Below, one piece after another: positions 56,002 to 64,000 of a stretch of DNA of 64,000 nt (position 1 is its first letter; each line of letters starts with the position of its first letter). A program made the position numbers and the translations under genes. The stretch is from the NCBI RefSeq assembly GCF_020687785.1, contig NZ_JAJEWI010000010.1, positions 372,001 through 436,000 of the forward strand, written 5' to 3'. The DNA comes from Sphingopyxis yananensis (GTDB taxonomy: Bacteria > Pseudomonadota > Alphaproteobacteria > Sphingomonadales > Sphingomonadaceae). The notes under the pieces are model-generated. The model was given only the letters and a program-made list of their open reading frames with translations, was not told where the DNA came from and did no database searches.

Positions 56002-56394
56002 TTATCGTACCGAAAAGCTATATTGGCCGGAGCTTGGCTGCGCCCCTGTTGCGGTGGCGGTCCATGAAACGCGATAGGTGCCGGGCACCAGCGGGCGCTT
56101 CAATGTCATGGTGACAGATTTGCTGTCGCGGCCAATGGCCGATGTGGCCCGCATCTTCATAGGCGGGTGGTCGGTCATGCCGGGCATCGCCGTCATGATC
56201 AACTCTGTCCGCAGCGATGAAGGAGTGATCGTTTCGTTAAATTGGAGCGACAAAGACGTCACCTTGGACGCCGTGCTGTTGGCGGCGGGTCTAGCGCTGC
56301 TGACCGCGAGCCGTGCATCAGCGGCGGATGTTACGCCCAGCAGAAGGAGGGAGGCGGTGATGGCGGCAAATGTGCGTGACAATATTTTTTCCAT
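56002..56394 (-). CDS. CopC-like periplasmic copper-binding protein
   Basis: A 130-residue protein with a signal peptide (MEKILSRTFAAITASLLLLGVTSAADA). The mature domain is the CopC fold: RLAVSSARPAANSTASKVTSLSLQFNETITPSS and PLVPGTYRVSWTATATG. CopC and PcoC begin the mature chain with His (HxxLxxSxPxxx), used for Cu(II). Here Arg replaces that His. The middle is Met-rich (M67, M70, M73, H76, M79, M81), which would favour Cu(I). It is divergent from the CnrY-like gene, with 144 bases between. Its place beside the copper oxidase operon supports a copper role. No CopD partner is adjacent. Confidence 0.88.
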   Translation of the reverse strand: MEKILSRTFAAITASLLLLGVTSAADARLAVSSARPAANSTASKVTSLSLQFNETITPSSLRTELIMTAMPGMTDHPPMKMRATSAIGRDSKSVTMTLKRPLVPGTYRVSWTATATGAQPSSGQYSFSVR

Positions 56395-56538
56395 TCTTTG
56401 AATTTTGCTCGGCGTTTTTGCGCTGTGCTGATAATACGCGAAAGGGGGAAAATACCCTCAATGTCTCAATTCATCATGTTTTCATGAGGGGCGGGGGTGA
56501 TGGCTGCGTAAAAGGCCATGGGGGAAAGTGAGAAATTT
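56395..56538. promoter_or_regulatory. Divergent control region between CopC-like gene and metal-response operon
   Basis: This 144-base region should hold both promoters. A short TCATG/CATGA inverted repeat at 56474-56487 and a GGGGGAAA purine run near 56444-56451 are visible. I do not see a clear ECF promoter. Confidence 0.4.
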
Positions 56539-56805
56539 ATGGACCATGATTTGAAAATTTTGCGTGTGACCGATTTGCCCAAAGCGTTGGCAGATCTGGA
56601 TGATCATATATTGGCGGACGCTGTCATCCGGCGAAATGAGGCCAAAGCCATGCGCCGAATGATGGTTCTTGCGGCGTTTATTTCCATGGGTGGCGGTGTG
56701 GTCGCGGGCGCGGCATTGCCGGCACCAGCCGAAGCGGCCAGTCCGCTGACTTTATTGGTTCCGCACAGCCCATTGACGCAAGTAGGCATGGCGGACCGTA
56801 GCTAA
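56539..56805 (+). CDS. CnrY-like membrane anti-sigma factor
   Basis: An 88-residue protein, MDHDLKILRVTDLPKALADL at ATG 56539, with GGGGGAAAGTGAG upstream. The cytoplasmic N-terminal ~45 residues are helical with charges, then one membrane segment (about 46-66, RMMVLAAFISMGGGVVAGAA) and a short periplasmic tail ASPLTLLVPHSP. In CnrY of Cupriavidus the order is the same and the end reads ASPFGLLIG, which I recall and which matches. The anti-sigma N-terminus wraps the sigma factor, and release follows when CnrX senses metal. It overlaps the next gene by one base. No other domain is seen, so the call rests on gene order and this tail. Confidence 0.85.
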   Translation: MDHDLKILRVTDLPKALADLDDHILADAVIRRNEAKAMRRMMVLAAFISMGGGVVAGAALPAPAEAASPLTLLVPHSPLTQVGMADRS

Positions 56806-57254
56806 TGGCACCCCAAAGACAGGTTTTTCTGGTCGCGTTGATTGCCATCGTGGCCTTTGTTGCGGCGGCATCTGGTGTTTGGGTGGGAAGGGCGCTGACC
56901 GATAAACCGGATAGCAGCCACTTTGAATTGCACGCCAAATTATATGATGAATTGCAATTAAAGCCGGACCAGCGTGCCCAGTTGGCGAATGTCGAGGCGG
57001 CGTTTAATGTACGGCGCAAATTGCTGGAAAAGCAAATGCGCGAAGCGAATGAGCGTTTGGCGATCGGTATTCAATTGGAACATGGATACGGCCCGCAAGT
57101 GACGGATGCCATTGATGAAACCCATCGATTGATGGGGGATTTGCAGAAAGAAACCCTGCAATATCTGTTTGCCATGCGCGATGTGTTGGATGAGCAGCAG
57201 GCCGGCAAATTTGACAAAATTGTGGTCGATGCTTTGACCACTGATATGCAGTGA
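56805..57254 (+). CDS. CnrX-like periplasmic metal sensor
   Basis: A 149-residue protein with an N-terminal membrane anchor (about 7-29) and a periplasmic helical domain. HFELHAKLYDELQLKPDQRAQL, VEAAFNVRRKLLEKQMREANERLA and ETLQYLFAMRDVLDEQQAGKFDKIVVDAL match the CnrX/ZraP fold. Aligned from memory to CnrX of Cupriavidus metallidurans (Ni/Co ligands His42, His46, Glu63, His119, Met123), the equivalents here are His43, Tyr47, Glu64, Tyr120 and Met124. Two His ligands are thus Tyr, while His39 is nearby. This predicts a metal other than Ni or Co, with copper likely from the neighbours. The stop overlaps the sigma gene by 4 bases (GTGA). Confidence 0.88.
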   Translation: MAPQRQVFLVALIAIVAFVAAASGVWVGRALTDKPDSSHFELHAKLYDELQLKPDQRAQLANVEAAFNVRRKLLEKQMREANERLAIGIQLEHGYGPQVTDAIDETHRLMGDLQKETLQYLFAMRDVLDEQQAGKFDKIVVDALTTDMQ

Positions 57255-57820
57255 CGGTTGATTTTTCTCAATTAACAGATGCACAACTGGCCAGCCATGC
57301 ACGGATGGGCAGTCAATTGGCTTATCGGGAATTTTTAACCCGTTACAAAGCCCCGATTTATCGTTTAATTTGCAACTATATTGGCGATCCAGACGAGGCG
57401 CTGGATTTGGTGCAAGAGGCGTTTGTGTCGGCCTTTGCCGCCATTGATCGTTATGACGACAGCCGCGCCTTTCGCGTGTGGATGAGCCGAATTGCGGTGA
57501 ACAAGTGCCGCGATTGGGCGCGGCGGCGCAAGGTTCGGGCCTTTTTTTCGGCCGCGTTACCCCTTGAAAAAGCATATGATGTGGCCAGCGCTGACCCTTT
57601 GCCGGACGAGGAGTTGAGCGGGCGCGGGCAAGTCCAAATCGTGCGCCGCGCCATGGATGGCTTGCCAGCGAAGCTGCGCGAAGTGCTGATTTTGCGCGCG
57701 ATTGATGAGATGTCGCAGGCGGAGGCGGCAAAAATTTTGGGCGTCAGCGAAAAGACGGTGGAAACCCGCCTGTATCGCGCCCGATTGCGGATGCGCGAAC
57801 AGTTGGGCGATTTGTCTTAG
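57251..57820 (+). CDS. ECF sigma factor, CnrH-like
   Basis: A 189-residue sigma factor starting with GTG 57251 (MTVDFSQLTDAQLASHARMG), which overlaps the sensor stop as GTGA. Region 2 is REFLTRYKAPIYRLICNYIGDPDEALDLVQEAFVSAFAAIDRYDD to RIAVNKCRDWARRRKVRAFF. Region 4 is LPAKLREVLILRAIDEMSQAEAAKILGVSEKTVETRLYRARLRMREQL. It would be held by the CnrY-like protein and released when the sensor binds metal, then transcribe its own operon and the copper genes beyond. The multicopper oxidase ATG is 93 bases further on. Confidence 0.93.
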   Translation: MTVDFSQLTDAQLASHARMGSQLAYREFLTRYKAPIYRLICNYIGDPDEALDLVQEAFVSAFAAIDRYDDSRAFRVWMSRIAVNKCRDWARRRKVRAFFSAALPLEKAYDVASADPLPDEELSGRGQVQIVRRAMDGLPAKLREVLILRAIDEMSQAEAAKILGVSEKTVETRLYRARLRMREQLGDLS

Positions 57821-57913
57821 CGCGCCTTTCGGCTGTTTTGACCTGTTTTGCATGAGGGGTCGCGGCGCGGCCTGCGTATCTTTGCACAGATTATCAGGAG
57901 AGTTTCCATTTCT

Positions 57914-59662
57914 ATGCAGTTGGACCGGCGTCGTTTTGCAAGTGCTGCCTTTGGCGGAGGCGCGATGGCCGCGCTCGCGGCGCACATACCAGCATGGGCG
58001 CAGCCCGTGTCTCAGGGACTTGTGTCGACCCTGCCGACCGTCAGCGGTGAGGATATCACGCTGCGCATCGCCAAGCAGAAAATCCGTATTGATGGCATGG
58101 TGGCCAAGGCCATTGGCGTGAATGGTACCATTCCCGCCCCATTGGTGCGCCTGAAAGAGGGCCAAAATATTCGCCTGACGGTGCATAATGATTTGGATGA
58201 GGATAGCTCAATCCATTGGCACGGCCTGATTTTGCCATTTCATATGGACGGCGTGCCCGGTGTCAGCTTCCCCGGTATCAAGCCCAAATCATCCTTTACC
58301 TATGAATTTCCGATCGTTCAAAGTGGTACCTATTGGTATCACAGCCACAGCGGTTTGCAGGAAGCTTTGGGTCTTTATGGGCCGATAGTGATTGATCCGG
58401 CGGGCGCGGACCCTGTGGGCTATGACCGCGAGCATGTGATTGTCTTGTCCGACCACAGCCACCTGTCGCCTTATGAAATCTTTCGCAAGATGAAGGTTAG
58501 CCACGGTCATTGGAACATGCAGCGCGAGACGTTCATGGACCTGATTAAAGGCAAGGGTCTGTCTTTGTCCGAACGCATTGCGTGGGGCAAAATGCGCATG
58601 GACCCGACCGACGTGGCCGATGTGAACGGGTCGATTTTGGAATTTTTGGTCAATGGCCATGGTCCCAAGGACAATTGGACTGGCCTGTTCCGTCCCGGTG
58701 AACGGGTTCGTTTGCGGATTATCAACGCATCGTCGATGTCGATTTTTAATGTGCGTATCCCCGGATTGCGGATGACCGTGGTTCAGGCCGATGGTTTGCA
58801 TATTCGCCCCGTAGAAATTGATGAATTTCAAATCGGTGTGGCGGAAACTTACGATGTGATCGTCACGCCAACCGAAGACCAAGCCTATACATTTGTGGCG
58901 GAAGTGAACGACCGCAGTGGCATGGCACGCGCGACCTTGGCCCCGCGTGCGGGCATGGTGGCCCCTGTTCCGGCGCTGCGTGAACGGCCGCTGGCGACCA
59001 TGAAAGATATGGGTATGGGCGATATGTCGGGCGGTGACTGCACCCCCGAACATGAAGCCATGGGCCATTGTTCGGTGGATGGCGATAGTGGCGGCGGCGG
59101 CATGGACCATGGGATGCGCGATTTCAGTCTGGCGCCGCAAGTCAAGCGCGACCCCAGTGTGCAGGCCATTTCGCCGATGCCCGTCGACCGCATGAACGAA
59201 CCGGGCCAAGGCTTGGATAATGTGGGCCATCAAGTGCTGACCTATCATGACTTGCTGTCATTGGAGCCGAACCCTGATGTGCGCGCACCCAGCCGTTCGC
59301 TGGACATTCACCTGACCGGCAACATGGAGCGGTTTATGTGGTCGTTCGACGGGGTGAAAATGTCGGATCATCATGAACCCATTCCTTTCATCGAGGGCGA
59401 GCGGGTGCGGGTGAATTTGATCAACCAATCGATGATGAGCCACCCCATTCACTTGCACGGCCATTTCTTTGAACTGGTGACGGGCAAGGGCGATCATTCG
59501 CCGCGCAAACATACGGTCATTGTTCAGCCGGGCGGAACAGCCAGCTTTGACTTTACCGCCGACGCGCTGGGGGATTGGGCGTTCCACTGTCACTTGCTGT
59601 ACCATATGCACGCCGGAATGATGCGCGTTGTCAGCGTTCGTCCGAAGGGAGAAGAGGCATGA
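57914..59662 (+). CDS. copA: Multicopper oxidase, CopA/PcoA copper-resistance type
   Basis: A 582-residue exported oxidase. The twin-arginine signal is DRRRFASAAFGGGAMAAL (residues 4-21). Copper sites appear as HWH (101-103), HSH (143-145), HPIHLHG (510-516) and HCHLLYHMHAGM (558-569), giving the T1 and trinuclear centre. It oxidises Cu(I) to less toxic Cu(II) in the periplasm. Residues ~370-420 form a Met/His/Asp insert with the motif CTPEHEAMGHC, shared with the next protein. AGGAG lies 13 bases before ATG 57914. The stop overlaps copB as ATGA. It follows the CnrYXH-like genes and is probably under their control. Confidence 0.95.
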   Translation: MQLDRRRFASAAFGGGAMAALAAHIPAWAQPVSQGLVSTLPTVSGEDITLRIAKQKIRIDGMVAKAIGVNGTIPAPLVRLKEGQNIRLTVHNDLDEDSSIHWHGLILPFHMDGVPGVSFPGIKPKSSFTYEFPIVQSGTYWYHSHSGLQEALGLYGPIVIDPAGADPVGYDREHVIVLSDHSHLSPYEIFRKMKVSHGHWNMQRETFMDLIKGKGLSLSERIAWGKMRMDPTDVADVNGSILEFLVNGHGPKDNWTGLFRPGERVRLRIINASSMSIFNVRIPGLRMTVVQADGLHIRPVEIDEFQIGVAETYDVIVTPTEDQAYTFVAEVNDRSGMARATLAPRAGMVAPVPALRERPLATMKDMGMGDMSGGDCTPEHEAMGHCSVDGDSGGGGMDHGMRDFSLAPQVKRDPSVQAISPMPVDRMNEPGQGLDNVGHQVLTYHDLLSLEPNPDVRAPSRSLDIHLTGNMERFMWSFDGVKMSDHHEPIPFIEGERVRVNLINQSMMSHPIHLHGHFFELVTGKGDHSPRKHTVIVQPGGTASFDFTADALGDWAFHCHLLYHMHAGMMRVVSVRPKGEEA

Positions 59663-60993
59663 AAAATCTGTCTTTGACCCTGATGGGCGGAATTTCGATG
59701 CTGGCCTTCGCGGCGCCTGCTGCGGCGCAGAGCGAGCATACGGGTCATGCTGGCCATGATGCAAAGCCAGCGGTCAGCACACCGACCTGCACGCCGGACC
59801 ATGCCGCGATGGGCCATTGTACCCTAAGCGTGACGGCGGACGATCATACGGCCGACCATCAGGGGGCCGCAAACCATGATGCCCAGCAGGGGCATGGTGA
59901 GCAAGATCATGCCGCGCATCAGGCGCAAGGGGCGCATGCTAGCCATGACATGCATGGCGCAGAGGGTGCAGGGACAGCCACAGCCGTGGTGACGGAAGCG
60001 ACCTGCACACCGGAGCATGCGGCCATGGGCCACTGCACTTTGCCGGCCAAGGCGCAGGATCATAGCGCGCATCAAACGTCCGCCAATCCCGAGGCAGGGC
60101 ATAGCGATCACGCAGCGACGCCTGGTGCCAAGGCCGACGATCATGCGGCAGTGCAGGCTGGCACAGCCACATGCACGGCAGAACATGCGGCCATGGGGCA
60201 TTGCACATTGGAGGCGACCAACTCCAATTTGCCGCAAATTGGCACCAACCTACCCTCCGGTGACGCACCCGCGCCGCCGCCGCCCAGCGATTGGATGGCC
60301 GATGGCGTGTGGGGCGAGGGGGCGATGGCCCATAGCCGCCATATGATGATGGTCGAAAATGGTGGTCAGACCTTTAGCTATTTGCGCTTGAACGGCGAAT
60401 ATAGCGCCCGAAAAGGCCGTGATGCTTATTCGGTCGACGGCAAATTCTGGTATGGCGGCGATATCAACCGTCTGCATATACGCGGCGGATTTTCTGGCGA
60501 TGTTGGTAAGGGCGTCGACGATGGCGATATCGCGGTGCTTTATAGCCGCGCCATTGATGCCTATTTCAATATCGAAGGCGGTATCAAACAGGAATTGGGT
60601 GAGGGACCGAAGCGGACCTATGCCAGCATTGGCTTTTCCGGACTTGCCCCTTATTGGTTTGAGCTGGAAAGCGCGCTGATGGTTTCCGACAAAGGTGATT
60701 TTACGGCCCATATCGAAGCCGAATATGACCAATTGATCACCCAGAAACTGGTGCTGCAACCGGCGTTTGAGCTGGGCCTTTCGGCGCAAAATGTGGCAGA
60801 GAAGGGCTTGGGTAGCGGTATCACCGAAGTGGGCGCGTCGCTGCGCCTGCGCTATGAATTTGTGCGGGCCTTTGCTCCTTATGTCGGGGTGTCGTGGAGC
60901 CAAAAAATTGGCGGAACCGCTGATTTCGCCCGCGCGGCGGGGGAGAAGGCGTCGTCGACCAAATTTGTTTTTGGCCTGCGGACCTGGTTTTAA
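59659..60993 (+). CDS. copB: Copper-resistance outer-membrane protein CopB with metal-binding repeats
   Basis: A 444-residue protein. ATG 59659 overlaps the oxidase stop. A signal peptide ends AAAQ (about residue 24). Residues 27-190 are extremely His/Ala-rich and carry three copies of an 11-residue motif: CTPDHAAMGHC (44-54), CTPEHAAMGHC (116-126) and CTAEHAAMGHC (172-182). The C-terminal ~240 residues are the CopB barrel (WMADGVWGEGAMAHSRHMMMVENG, SYLRLNGEYS, IRGGFSGDV, ending FVFGLRTWF with Phe). CopB proteins bind copper and help resist it at the outer membrane. Pseudomonas CopB has shorter Met/His repeats, and this version with paired Cys looks different. Confidence 0.93.
   Translation: MKNLSLTLMGGISMLAFAAPAAAQSEHTGHAGHDAKPAVSTPTCTPDHAAMGHCTLSVTADDHTADHQGAANHDAQQGHGEQDHAAHQAQGAHASHDMHGAEGAGTATAVVTEATCTPEHAAMGHCTLPAKAQDHSAHQTSANPEAGHSDHAATPGAKADDHAAVQAGTATCTAEHAAMGHCTLEATNSNLPQIGTNLPSGDAPAPPPPSDWMADGVWGEGAMAHSRHMMMVENGGQTFSYLRLNGEYSARKGRDAYSVDGKFWYGGDINRLHIRGGFSGDVGKGVDDGDIAVLYSRAIDAYFNIEGGIKQELGEGPKRTYASIGFSGLAPYWFELESALMVSDKGDFTAHIEAEYDQLITQKLVLQPAFELGLSAQNVAEKGLGSGITEVGASLRLRYEFVRAFAPYVGVSWSQKIGGTADFARAAGEKASSTKFVFGLRTWF
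59788..60204 (+). repeat. Three coding copies of the C-T-x-[ED]-H-A-A-M-G-H-C motif
   Basis: The 33-base units lie at 59788-59820, 60004-60036 and 60172-60204 in copB, with a fourth, related unit at 59039-59071 in the oxidase gene. Cys, His, Met, His, Cys are at fixed spacing in all four copies. Confidence 0.92.
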
Positions 60994-60997
60994 ATAT

Positions 60998-61031
60998 AAG
61001 GGGTAGGCCGTTAATGGTCTGCCCCCTTTTG
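60998..61031 (+). terminator. Imperfect hairpin after copB
   Basis: AAGGGGTAGGCC (60998-61009) pairs with GGTCTGCCCCCTT (61016-61028), with two G-U pairs and one bulged base, then TTTG. It may be a partial terminator before the DUF411 gene. Confidence 0.6.
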
Positions 61032-61067
61032 TTGTGGCCGCTGGGCCATGGGATGAAGGAAAATCTG

Positions 61068-61580
61068 ATGGGTGCCTTGTGTTGCCGCCGAAATGCCCTG
61101 ACCCTGTTATTGGGTGCGTCCACCGCTTTGCTGGTGGGGTGCGGCAAGACTGATAGCGCCAGCTTGGCATCGGCCAATGCGGCCGAAGGCGATACGGCTG
61201 CCGCAAAGCCTACGATGATCGTGTATCGTGATCCCAATTGCGGTTGCTGCGGGGCGTGGGCGGACCAAGCCATGGCGGCTGGTTATCCGGTGAAAATTGA
61301 AATCCGCGAGGATATGGGCACGGTGAAAACGGGCCTGAATGTGCGCGCGGATTTGGCAAGCTGTCATACTGTGACGGTGGCCGGATATGTGCTGGAGGGC
61401 CATGTGCCATTTGACCATATCGCCAAGCTGCTAGCTGAAAAGCCCAAAGATATTATTGGATTGGCTGTTCCGGGGATGCCGCGTGGGTCCCCAGGCATGG
61501 AAATGCCAGATGGCAGCAAAGACGAATTTGACGTGATTGGGTTCGACAAAAATGGCCCTGTGCGGGTGTTTACCGCCTGA
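61068..61580 (+). CDS. DUF411 metal-binding lipoprotein
   Basis: A 170-residue protein from ATG 61068 with AAGGA 8 bases upstream. Earlier in-frame ATGs (61014, 61053) lack such a site. A basic start and lipobox LLVGCG suggest a lipoprotein with lipid Cys near residue 25. The DUF411 domain follows with DPNCGCCGAWADQ, DLASCHTVTVAGYVLEGHVP, LLAEKPKDIIGLAVPGMP and SPGMEMPDG. The Cys, His and Met positions are thought to bind copper, and DUF411 genes are often next to copper-resistance genes, as here. It is last in the plus-strand copper run. Function is inferred from company. Confidence 0.88.
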   Translation: MGALCCRRNALTLLLGASTALLVGCGKTDSASLASANAAEGDTAAAKPTMIVYRDPNCGCCGAWADQAMAAGYPVKIEIREDMGTVKTGLNVRADLASCHTVTVAGYVLEGHVPFDHIAKLLAEKPKDIIGLAVPGMPRGSPGMEMPDGSKDEFDVIGFDKNGPVRVFTA

Positions 61581-61606: not shown

Positions 61607-62170
61607 CTATAGCAGCGTGATTTGCGCTGTAATTAAAGCGCCGCTTGGCTGGATAAGTTGGGCGGCGTTTGGCGTTTCAACAAAGATCGCGTCCTCGCTC
61701 GCCAGACGGTGGCGGTGGCCGGACATGGTGAGGGTGCAAGGCTGCGGCGCGACCATCAGCAAATGATCGGCAAGGGCGGTAAAGGATGTGCTTTGTCGCC
61801 GCAAAGTCAGTTCGGCGCGGCCATGGCGGGCCATCAGGTTAAGCACGCGGCAGGGACGCAGCGGTTCGGCGTAAACGGGCGTGTCGCCCGCAAAAATATA
61901 TTCCGGCATATCGTCGGTGATGACGCGCGTTTCGCCGTGAATGGTCAGCCGCATTTCACCCGACAGCAAGATTAAGTGACGCGTGACATTGGGCCAGCGT
62001 GAAAAATCGCTTGGCTGGCTGACCTGCGCGATGCTGGCGCGCCAAAAAAAATCGTCATCGCCCAAAGTTGGGATGGACGGAAAAAGGGCGACATCTTGGG
62101 TGATGCCGCCGCCGCTGCGCCAGCGCCGCGAGGGGCGCTGGCTGGCGGGTAATAGACGTGCCGTCGTCAT
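61607..62170 (-). CDS. hutD: HutD family protein
   Basis: A 187-residue cupin-like protein. FFWRASIAQVSQPSDFSRWPNVTRHLILLSGEMRLTI, FAGDTPVYAEPL and CRVLNLMARHGRAEL are HutD motifs. In histidine-utilisation operons HutD is thought to limit pathway activity, perhaps by binding a product such as N-formimino-glutamate; the mechanism is unsettled. Start ATG 62170 lies 10 bases after the hutU stop, so it is in the hut operon. Its own 3' side meets the DUF411 gene convergently across 26 bases. Confidence 0.87.
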   Translation of the reverse strand: MTTARLLPASQRPSRRWRSGGGITQDVALFPSIPTLGDDDFFWRASIAQVSQPSDFSRWPNVTRHLILLSGEMRLTIHGETRVITDDMPEYIFAGDTPVYAEPLRPCRVLNLMARHGRAELTLRRQSTSFTALADHLLMVAPQPCTLTMSGHRHRLASEDAIFVETPNAAQLIQPSGALITAQITLL

Positions 62171-62180
62171 ATGGGCTGCA

Positions 62181-63848
62181 TCAACCCAGAATAGCGGGCA
62201 GGTTCAGGCCTTGCTCGCGCGCGCAATCCAGTGCGATGTCATAGCCGGCGTCGGCGTGGCGCATGACACCGGTGGCGGGGTCGTTCCACAACACACGTTC
62301 CAAACGGCGAGCGGCGTCGTCGCTGCCATCCGCAACAATCACCATGCCGCTGTGCTGCGAATAGCCCATGCCGACGCCGCCCCCATGATGCAGCGATACC
62401 CATGTTGCGCCCGATGCGGTGTTGAGCAAGGCGTTGAGCAATGGCCAGTCGGACACGGCGTCGCTGCCGTCCTTCATGGCCTCGGTTTCGCGGTTGGGCG
62501 ATGCGACCGATCCGCTGTCCAAATGGTCGCGGCCAATGACCACGGGGGCCTTGAGTTCGCCATTTTTGACCATTTCGTTGAACGCCAGCCCCAAACGGTG
62601 GCGGTCGCCAAGGCCGACCCAGCAGATGCGCGCCGGAAGCCCTTGGAAGTGGATTTTCTCGCGGGCCATATCCAACCAGCGATGCAGTTCCTTATGATCG
62701 GGCAGCAATTCCTTAACCTTGGCATCCGTTTTAAAGATGTCTTCGGGGTCGCCCGACAGGGCGGCCCAGCGGAATGGGCCGATGCCACGACAGAAGAGCG
62801 GGCGGATATAGGCGGGGACAAAACCCGGGAAGTCAAAGGCATTGGCGACGCCTTCGTCCTTGGCGACTTGGCGGATATTGTTGCCATAATCGGTGGTGGG
62901 AACACCGGCGGCTTGGAAATCCAGCATCGCACGGACATGTTGGGCCATCGACGCTTTGGCCGCTTTGGCGACGGCTGCGGGGTCGCTTTCGCGCTTTTCC
63001 AGCCATTCGGCGACGGTCCAGCCAGCGGGAAAATAGCCGTTAACGGGGTCGTGTGCGCTGGTTTGGTCGGTCAAAAGGTCGGGACGAATGCCGCGTGCGA
63101 ACATTTCGGGCAGCAATTCCGCCGCATTGCCGAGCAATCCGACCGAGACGGTTTTGCCATCAGCCTTGGCTTGTTCGATGATGGCCATGGCTTCGTCGAT
63201 GGTGGCGGCTGATGTGTCGAGATAGCCGGTGCGCAGGCGCATGTCGATGCGGCTGGGCTGGCATTCAATGGCGATGCAAGATGCGCCCGCCATGACCGCA
63301 GCAAGGGGCTGTGCGCCGCCCATGCCGCCAAGGCCCGCCGTCAGCAACCATTTGCCGGACAAATCGCCGCCATGATGTTGGCGGCCCATTTCGACGAATG
63401 TTTCATAGGTTCCCTGCACAATACCTTGGGTTCCAATGTAAATCCACGAACCAGCGGTCATTTGGCCATACATAGCGAGGCCGCGTTTATCGAGTTCGTT
63501 GAAATGGTCCCAATTGGCCCATTGAGGGACCAGATTGCTGTTGGCGATCAGCACGCGCGGCGCGTCTTTGTGGGTTTGGAACACGCCAACTGGCTTGCCG
63601 GATTGCACCAGCAAGGTTTGATCGTCGTTCAGTGTTTTCAGCGTTTCAACGATTTTGTCATAGCTGGGCCAATCGCGCGCGGCGCGGCCAATGCCGCCAT
63701 AGACTACCAATTCTTCGGGGCGTTCGGCCACGTCGGGATGCAGATTGTTCATCAACATTCGCAGCGGCGCTTCGGTCAGCCAGCTTTTGGCGTTTAATTC
63801 GGTGCCGACAGGGGATTTGATGACGCGGCTGTTGTCGAGGCGGTTCAT
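62181..63848 (-). CDS. hutU: Urocanate hydratase
   Basis: A 555-residue urocanase (second step of histidine breakdown: urocanate to imidazolonepropionate, NAD+-dependent). ATG 63848 has AGGA 6 bases upstream. [89 protein letters not shown] (NAD site), [30 protein letters not shown] and [19 protein letters not shown] (active-site Cys region) are all present. Length is normal (E. coli-type ~557). It overlaps the upstream hutG stop as ATGA. Confidence 0.98.
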
Positions 63849-64000
63849 GCGTGTCCTTTCGCAAAATCGAGGACGGCCGTGATAATGCGTTGTAAAACTG
63901 GTAAAATCACGGGCGTTGAGTGGAGCGGCGTCGGCCATTGGCCGGGCGCATAATCTGTTGGTTCGTCCATATAACCGCGCTGGGCGAGTTCCATTTGGAT
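63845..64000 (-). CDS. hutG: N-formylglutamate deformylase, C-terminal end
   Basis: The minus strand is open from the window edge (64000) to TGA at 63847-63845, overlapping the hutU ATG. The 51 residues include [14 protein letters not shown] and end in [12 protein letters not shown], which match the C-terminal end of N-formylglutamate amidohydrolase. That enzyme makes glutamate and formate in the last step of the long hut pathway. The 5' part is outside the window. Next to hutU and hutD, this gives at least a three-gene hut operon. Confidence 0.88.

Follow-up and report, generated by a model that had tools for sequence, protein, structure and literature searches.

Is a sigma-factor switch of the type known from nickel and cobalt resistance in Cupriavidus in command of copper-resistance genes in Sphingopyxis yananensis? 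The window, the whole stretch of 64,000 nucleotides analysed here, carries a group of genes for which a sequence-only reading had proposed this, namely an anti-sigma gene, a periplasmic sensor gene and an ECF sigma gene resembling CnrYXH and wired to the copper genes around them. In CnrYXH, the sigma factor is kept at the membrane by the sensor and the anti-sigma protein until periplasmic metal sets it free, as described in the portions of PMC7689651 and PMC4598750 available to us. Among ECF factors, CorE (PMC10141476) and SigF of Caulobacter (PMC8224329) are tied to copper in the portions of these papers that we used.

Genes of the locus

Seven genes, all with intact open reading frames, occupy positions 56002-61580 of the window. 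The copC-like gene (56002..56394) is on the minus strand, divergent from the other six, and its product, a periplasmic copper protein, matches Pfam PF04234 with 46.2 bits (cut-off 23.3, E 1e-11); the NCBIfam model copper_CopC gives 70.9 bits, below its cut-off of 95. On the plus strand are genes for an anti-sigma candidate (56539..56805, 88 amino acids, one hydrophobic segment), a periplasmic metal sensor of the CnrX/NccX type (56805..57254, 149 amino acids) and an ECF sigma factor (57251..57820, 189 amino acids, GTG start). The sensor matches Metal_resist PF13801 (E 2e-13) and the sigma factor matches Sigma70_r2 (E 1e-16) and r4_2 (E 5e-18), all above the curated cut-offs. These genes are followed on the same strand by copA (57914..59662), which encodes a copper-resistance multicopper oxidase (TIGR01480, 792.1 bits against a cut-off of 478.95, E 3e-238), by copB (59659..60993, ATG start), which encodes an outer-membrane copper resistance protein with a long front part rich in His and Met (PF05275, 241 bits, E 1e-71), and by the gene for a DUF411 protein (61014..61580; PF04214, 87.6 bits, E 4e-25), the last two again above the curated cut-offs. 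No NCBIfam model scored above its cut-off for the sensor, the anti-sigma candidate or the DUF411 protein.

The layout proposed from the letters of the DNA is borne out, with open frames at or very near the expected positions and family matches above cut-off. The anti-sigma and sensor genes do overlap by 1 base and the sensor and sigma genes by 4 bases, and copB overlaps copA by 4 bases. The remark that RND efflux genes are missing from the locus also holds, as a tblastn search with the four RND pumps of the same genome found none within 8 kb of the sensor gene; the four pumps are located elsewhere in the genome. No member of the CopD family was found in the genome, though copC is present, and the Sphingopyxis indica plasmid pMC4 has copCD. 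Histidine-utilisation genes (HutD and urocanase by Pfam, others by eye) occupy 61607-63998 and continue at L260:5846-11622, a further stretch of the genome. They separate the copper genes from the TonB-dependent receptor gene discussed below, and in pMC4 the two are adjacent.

Relationship of the switch proteins to CnrYXH

In a PDB sequence search, the best solved matches of the sensor were NccX (E 3.9e-17) and CnrX. The predicted structure of the sensor has a mean pLDDT of 72.5, with residues 1-41 poorly predicted, and a structure search with this model returned 15 matches at E ≤ 0.001, all of them CnrX or NccX; the solved CnrX-type structures among them include E63Q and M123A/C mutants. The nearest solved relative of the sigma factor is CnrH, which was the best of 29 PDB sequences (E 3e-28). 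In a phylogenetic tree of the sigma factors, the copper-linked sequences (68 rows) and the RND-linked ones (4 rows) lie on the two sides of one branch with an SH-aLRT value of 99. This tree was thinned at 78% sensor identity and does not include L124, L078, L217 and one locus whose sigma factor was not found.

No Pfam or NCBIfam family reaches its cut-off with the anti-sigma candidate, and the PDB search found nothing related to it. A profile of the anti-sigma proteins matched CnrY with 76% probability when the divergent row L206 was included and with 10% probability when it was removed, which is a weak likeness. The Pfam family zf-HC2 has no match in the genome. A C-terminal P..LL motif is present in 97 of 109 copper-linked and all four RND-linked anti-sigma proteins; in the window protein, P..LL is further from the C-terminus and the common ending LAPSTLL is absent. 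An anti-sigma frame was picked in 114 of 114 loci, a yield that is not a test because the script favours frames of about 90 amino acids with a hydrophobic stretch. In these loci the anti-sigma and sensor genes overlap by 4 bases in 67 cases and by 1 base in 19, and the sensor and sigma genes overlap by 4 bases in 77 of 113. The naming of this gene as an anti-sigma gene in the sequence-only reading is consistent with its size, hydrophobic segment, position and tail motif, and finds no counterpart above cut-off in the two family databases.

A shared promoter sequence

A bipartite motif, TGAGGG-N16-CGTA, is prominent in 97 thinned upstream regions, and the last base of the spacer is G in 70 of the 75 sites that have the main spacing. 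In its strict form the motif points toward the anti-sigma gene in 63 of the 97 regions and the opposite way in 47; across 100 shuffles the mean count was 0.04 and the highest was 1. The window has it three times in 1.5 kb, at 56460-56435 on the minus strand (predicted promoter of copC), at 56485-56510 on the plus strand (predicted promoter of the anti-sigma, sensor and sigma genes) and at 57853-57878 on the plus strand (predicted promoter of copA). Their positions ahead of copC, the anti-sigma gene and copA back the proposed wiring of the switch to the copper genes. The locus, spoken of as an operon in the sequence-only reading, is not one simple operon, because copA has a predicted site of its own and copC has a divergent one.

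In 92 thinned copper-linked loci we looked for GAGGG-N15-18-CGTA, a looser form of the motif. Ahead of the anti-sigma gene it is present in 78 loci and absent in 14. The divergent copC has it in 50 of 55 cases, copA in 67 of 78 and the gene for a TonB-dependent receptor in nine of nine; none of the 84 copB and none of the 42 DUF411 genes in these loci has it. The RND-linked locus L206 has no strict match. In 14 genomes the right spacing gave 49 sites (backwards control 10), and a spacing one base longer gave 2 sites in the same genomes (backwards control 12).

Transcription start sites of cnrY and cnrC on pMOL28 are given as 53286 and 54660 in the section of PMC9045368 that we used. Relative to these positions, both cnrYp and cnrCp carry CGTAT between -12 and -8 and an A/G-AGGGG box that begins at -34. 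By its sequence, the sphingomonad motif is of the same promoter class, the Cupriavidus spacer being one base longer. The geometry of the cnr promoters predicts a transcription start near 56519 in the window, a position that would favour the start codon at 56539 over an in-frame ATG at 56518.

Distribution in related bacteria

The sensor was found in 152 of 396 genomes sampled from the order, in 65 of 80 genomes of the genus, in 17 of 398 genomes of a phylum sample and in 9 of 385 genomes of a class sample, where four of the nine matches are weak. We read 94 neighbourhoods, comprising 80 places spread over the identity range of the order matches and 14 further loci. Each of the 94 contains the sigma gene together with one or more of copA, copB and copC. 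A divergent copC is present in 63, a downstream DUF411 gene in 33 and an RND gene within 6 kb in four. The gene order is more than chance, since copA and copB are downstream on the same strand in 80 neighbourhoods and the full order copC, sensor, sigma, copA, copB, DUF411 occurs in 30. Of 19 wider stretches, 12 have copA nearby, two are RND-linked (L206, L208), one has no cop gene (L205) and four have no usable sensor. The arrangement is lineage-wide, often on plasmids and not special to this strain, as judged from the neighbourhood counts, the same gene order in pMC4 and the 79 plasmid records with a relative of the sensor, of which six are from Cupriavidus.

Genome-wide sites and a probable wider regulon

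The motif and the sensor are associated across genomes. In 152 sensor-bearing genomes there are 492 exact sites (3.24 each) against 103 (0.68 each) for the backwards control, and in 244 genomes without the sensor there are 125 (0.51 each) against 126 (0.52 each); neither comparison is corrected for shared ancestry. Two or more exact sites occur in 121 of the 152 genomes with the sensor and in 20 of the 244 without a sensor match. Eight genomes (G236, G053, G196, G209, G252, G320, G049 and G113) have three or more exact copies and no sensor match at the cut-off; these may harbour the switch in a diverged or split form.

The S. yananensis genome has five sites with the exact spacing against none in the control, and eight against eight when the spacing is loosened to N14-18. 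One exact site, at C2:441752, is followed after 126 bases by a gene 5.75 kb past the window, whose product is a TonB-dependent receptor (Pfam Plug and barrel). The receptor gene and two PepSY-TM-like genes behind it, one scoring just under the cut-off and one over it, occupy C2:441904-446075 (L260:11905-16076), outside the window. A similar receptor gene lies 84-128 bases behind a site in L236, L237, L239, L243 and L248, where the receptor of L239 is the same as that of L048, and similar receptors (62-68% identity) also stand behind a site in the nine loci counted above. The receptor and PepSY-TM-like genes are a likely further target of the switch, and we infer a copper role for the receptor. 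The fifth exact copy in the genome (L221, C1:913585-913610, minus strand) is 141 bases before a gene for a 148-amino-acid protein that by eye resembles a glycine zipper. In G441 (L253, L240), exact copies precede genes for a heavy-metal P-type ATPase (by eye) and a small Cys/His-rich protein.

Copper-linked and RND-linked sensors

We take the metal ligands of CnrX to be His42, His46, Glu63, His119 and Met123. For Met123 this is stated in the part of PMC7689651 available to us. The corresponding positions are almost fully kept in the copper-linked sensors, with His42 in 107 of 109, His46 in 108, Glu63 in all 109, His119 in 108 and Met123 in 107. This set of 109 is not thinned and comprises all sensors that are not RND-linked, that is the window, L031-L124 and 14 further loci; it therefore holds near-copies (L050-L054) as well as L205, a short stretch with no cop gene visible, and L203, where RND genes also occur at a distance of 6 kb. 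The weak matches L211-L214 (E 5e-10 to 4e-7) were left out of the counts, two of them having no sensor match and two falling below the score limit. Two class-level, copper-linked sensors, L209 and L210, have Asp at the position of His42, and L209 also has Ile at that of Met123.

Other positions differ between the two groups. His107 and Met110 are present in 109 of 109 copper-linked sensors, whereas all six RND-linked sensors have Glu and Ala there, about five of these six being independent because L169 and L217 carry the same CnrX. The groups are also completely separated at positions 56 and 132, with Gln and Gln in the copper-linked sensors against Glu and His in the RND-linked ones. Since His and Met are usual copper ligands, His107 and Met110 are natural suspects for metal choice. 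In the predicted model they are on the same helix as the His119 and Met123 positions, 10-17 residues ahead of them; at this distance they probably belong, as ligands or as support, to a site distinct from that of the CnrX ligands.

Proposed mechanism and alternatives

The likeness to CnrYXH rests on the gene order with its overlaps, the fold of the sensor, the relatedness of the sigma factor and the promoter sequence. The anti-sigma candidate resembles CnrY weakly, and two of the five CnrX ligands are lost in the window. We consider it likely that the locus is a copper-linked branch of the CnrYXH switch, in which release by sensor and anti-sigma protein leads to sigma-dependent transcription at TGAGGG-N15-GCGTA. 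The sensor and the anti-sigma protein would be located in the inner membrane and would restrain the ECF sigma factor. Metal in the periplasm, most probably copper, would bind the sensor, and the anti-sigma protein would then let the sigma factor go. The freed sigma factor would transcribe copC, copA-copB-DUF411 and the TonB-dependent receptor gene from promoters of this form, and the switch genes, being among their own targets, would be under positive feedback. The output would be CopC and the DUF411 protein, together with a copper oxidase in the periplasm and a copper protein in the outer membrane. We infer copper as the signal because the targets are copper genes. Several observations weigh against this reading: the two lost ligands, the weak resemblance to CnrY and the absent tail ending in the window, the 14 anti-sigma genes and the locus L206 that lack the motif, the loose-spacing count in the S. 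yananensis genome, which equals its control, and the 20 genomes that have two or more sites but no sensor match.

The copy in the window has peculiarities of its own. Its sensor keeps His42, Glu63 and Met123 and has Tyr at positions 46 and 119 (Tyr47 and Tyr120 in its own numbering). It is alone in having Tyr at both, as 134 of 134 other copper-linked sensors read have His; 26 further sensors of the genus, read from the roughly 100 tblastn matches listed, all have normal ligands. Both Tyr codons are TAT, each one base away from a His codon. An extra His39 is otherwise found only in RND-linked rows. The sensor also departs from 3 of 24 near-invariant columns, compared with a mean of 0.22 (L209 departs from 4 and L210 from 3). 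These departures, together with the loss of the LAPSTLL ending from the anti-sigma candidate, could mean that the family works as proposed while this one copy no longer senses normally and is stuck on, stuck off or drifting, a reading compatible with the explanation at the family level. We regard this as possible, though less likely than not. Of 16 near-invariant columns in the sigma factor, only 1 is changed, and the usual anti-sigma tail is also missing in two close relatives within the genus (L046 and L058) that have normal sensors. The sensor may be retuned or failing; the intact frames and the three exact promoters argue for a working system. A more speculative thought, to which we give rather little weight, is that the copper branch senses copper away from the Ni/Co site of CnrX, around His107 and Met110 on the long helix. 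The window sensor would then be a natural experiment, having lost two His of the old site and kept the new pair while still commanding three exact promoters and the TonB-dependent receptor.

The near-complete retention of the CnrX ligands among the relatives could instead point to a switch that senses nickel, cobalt or several metals, the copper genes being a by-product or part of a broad response, and some alphaproteobacterial relatives of the switch do drive RND genes (L206). We think this improbable, given that the targets are copper genes and that copper-linked and RND-linked sensors differ at fixed positions including His107 and Met110. It is more improbable still, to the point that we give it hardly any credence, that the switch merely stands next to the copper genes, with no regulatory link, and spread jointly with them on mobile DNA. 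The plasmid records would suit such a history, but copC, copA and the switch genes have promoter boxes in common, and in genomes without the sensor the boxes are at background level.

If a copper-linked CnrYXH switch does operate here, a large part of one bacterial family runs its copper defence through it, and the predicted promoter and short list of targets could be tested at once. The residue differences open metal choice in CnrX-type sensors to directed mutagenesis, and the promoter makes the regulon readable from genome sequence.

Comparison with known systems

The open-licence literature that we searched yielded no description of a CnrYXH-type switch on copper genes. Newly described here are CnrH-like promoters at copper genes and a lineage-wide variant of a known switch. 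The closest known system is cnrYXHCBAT of Cupriavidus metallidurans CH34 pMOL28, together with NccX. The window shares with it the Y-X-H order with overlapping genes, the sensor fold, the relatedness of the sigma factor, the promoter class and a second promoter ahead of the first output gene. The output differs, being copCAB-DUF411 in the window and the RND genes cnrCBA in Cnr. The overlaps are 1 and 4 bases in the window and 4 and 4 in pMOL28, where the cnrY overlap comes to 4 bases because the listed end of cnrY omits the stop codon (285 bases give 95 residues). The promoter spacer of the window is one base shorter, fixed residues of the sensor differ, and two CnrX ligands are Tyr in the window.

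The locus of Sphingopyxis indica plasmid pMC4 (L219) has the same gene order as the window, and its genes are already annotated singly as periplasmic heavy metal sensor, sigma factor, multicopper oxidase, CopB, DUF411 and CopC. It differs from the window in having copD behind copC, a TonB receptor gene directly behind the DUF411 gene and normal sensor ligands.

Myxococcus xanthus has an ECF sigma factor, CorE, for copper genes, among them that of a multicopper oxidase. The Cys-rich C-terminal part of CorE itself senses the copper, and an anti-sigma protein was not found for it, as far as the portions of PMC3107203 and PMC10141476 at hand go. The window sigma factor, in contrast, has two Cys, neither near the C-terminus, has no Cys-rich C-terminal part and is accompanied by an anti-sigma candidate. 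SigF of Caulobacter crescentus is a copper-induced ECF sigma factor whose targets are other genes (PMC8224329, in part), and NrsF belongs to DUF1109 and has six membrane segments (PMC3511200, in part). Unlike NrsF, the anti-sigma candidate of the window has 88 amino acids, one hydrophobic segment and no Pfam family above cut-off. Finally, copAB genes are found with copRS two-component control (PMC12428095, in part); the CopA and CopB families are common to that system and the window, where control would be by a sigma switch instead.
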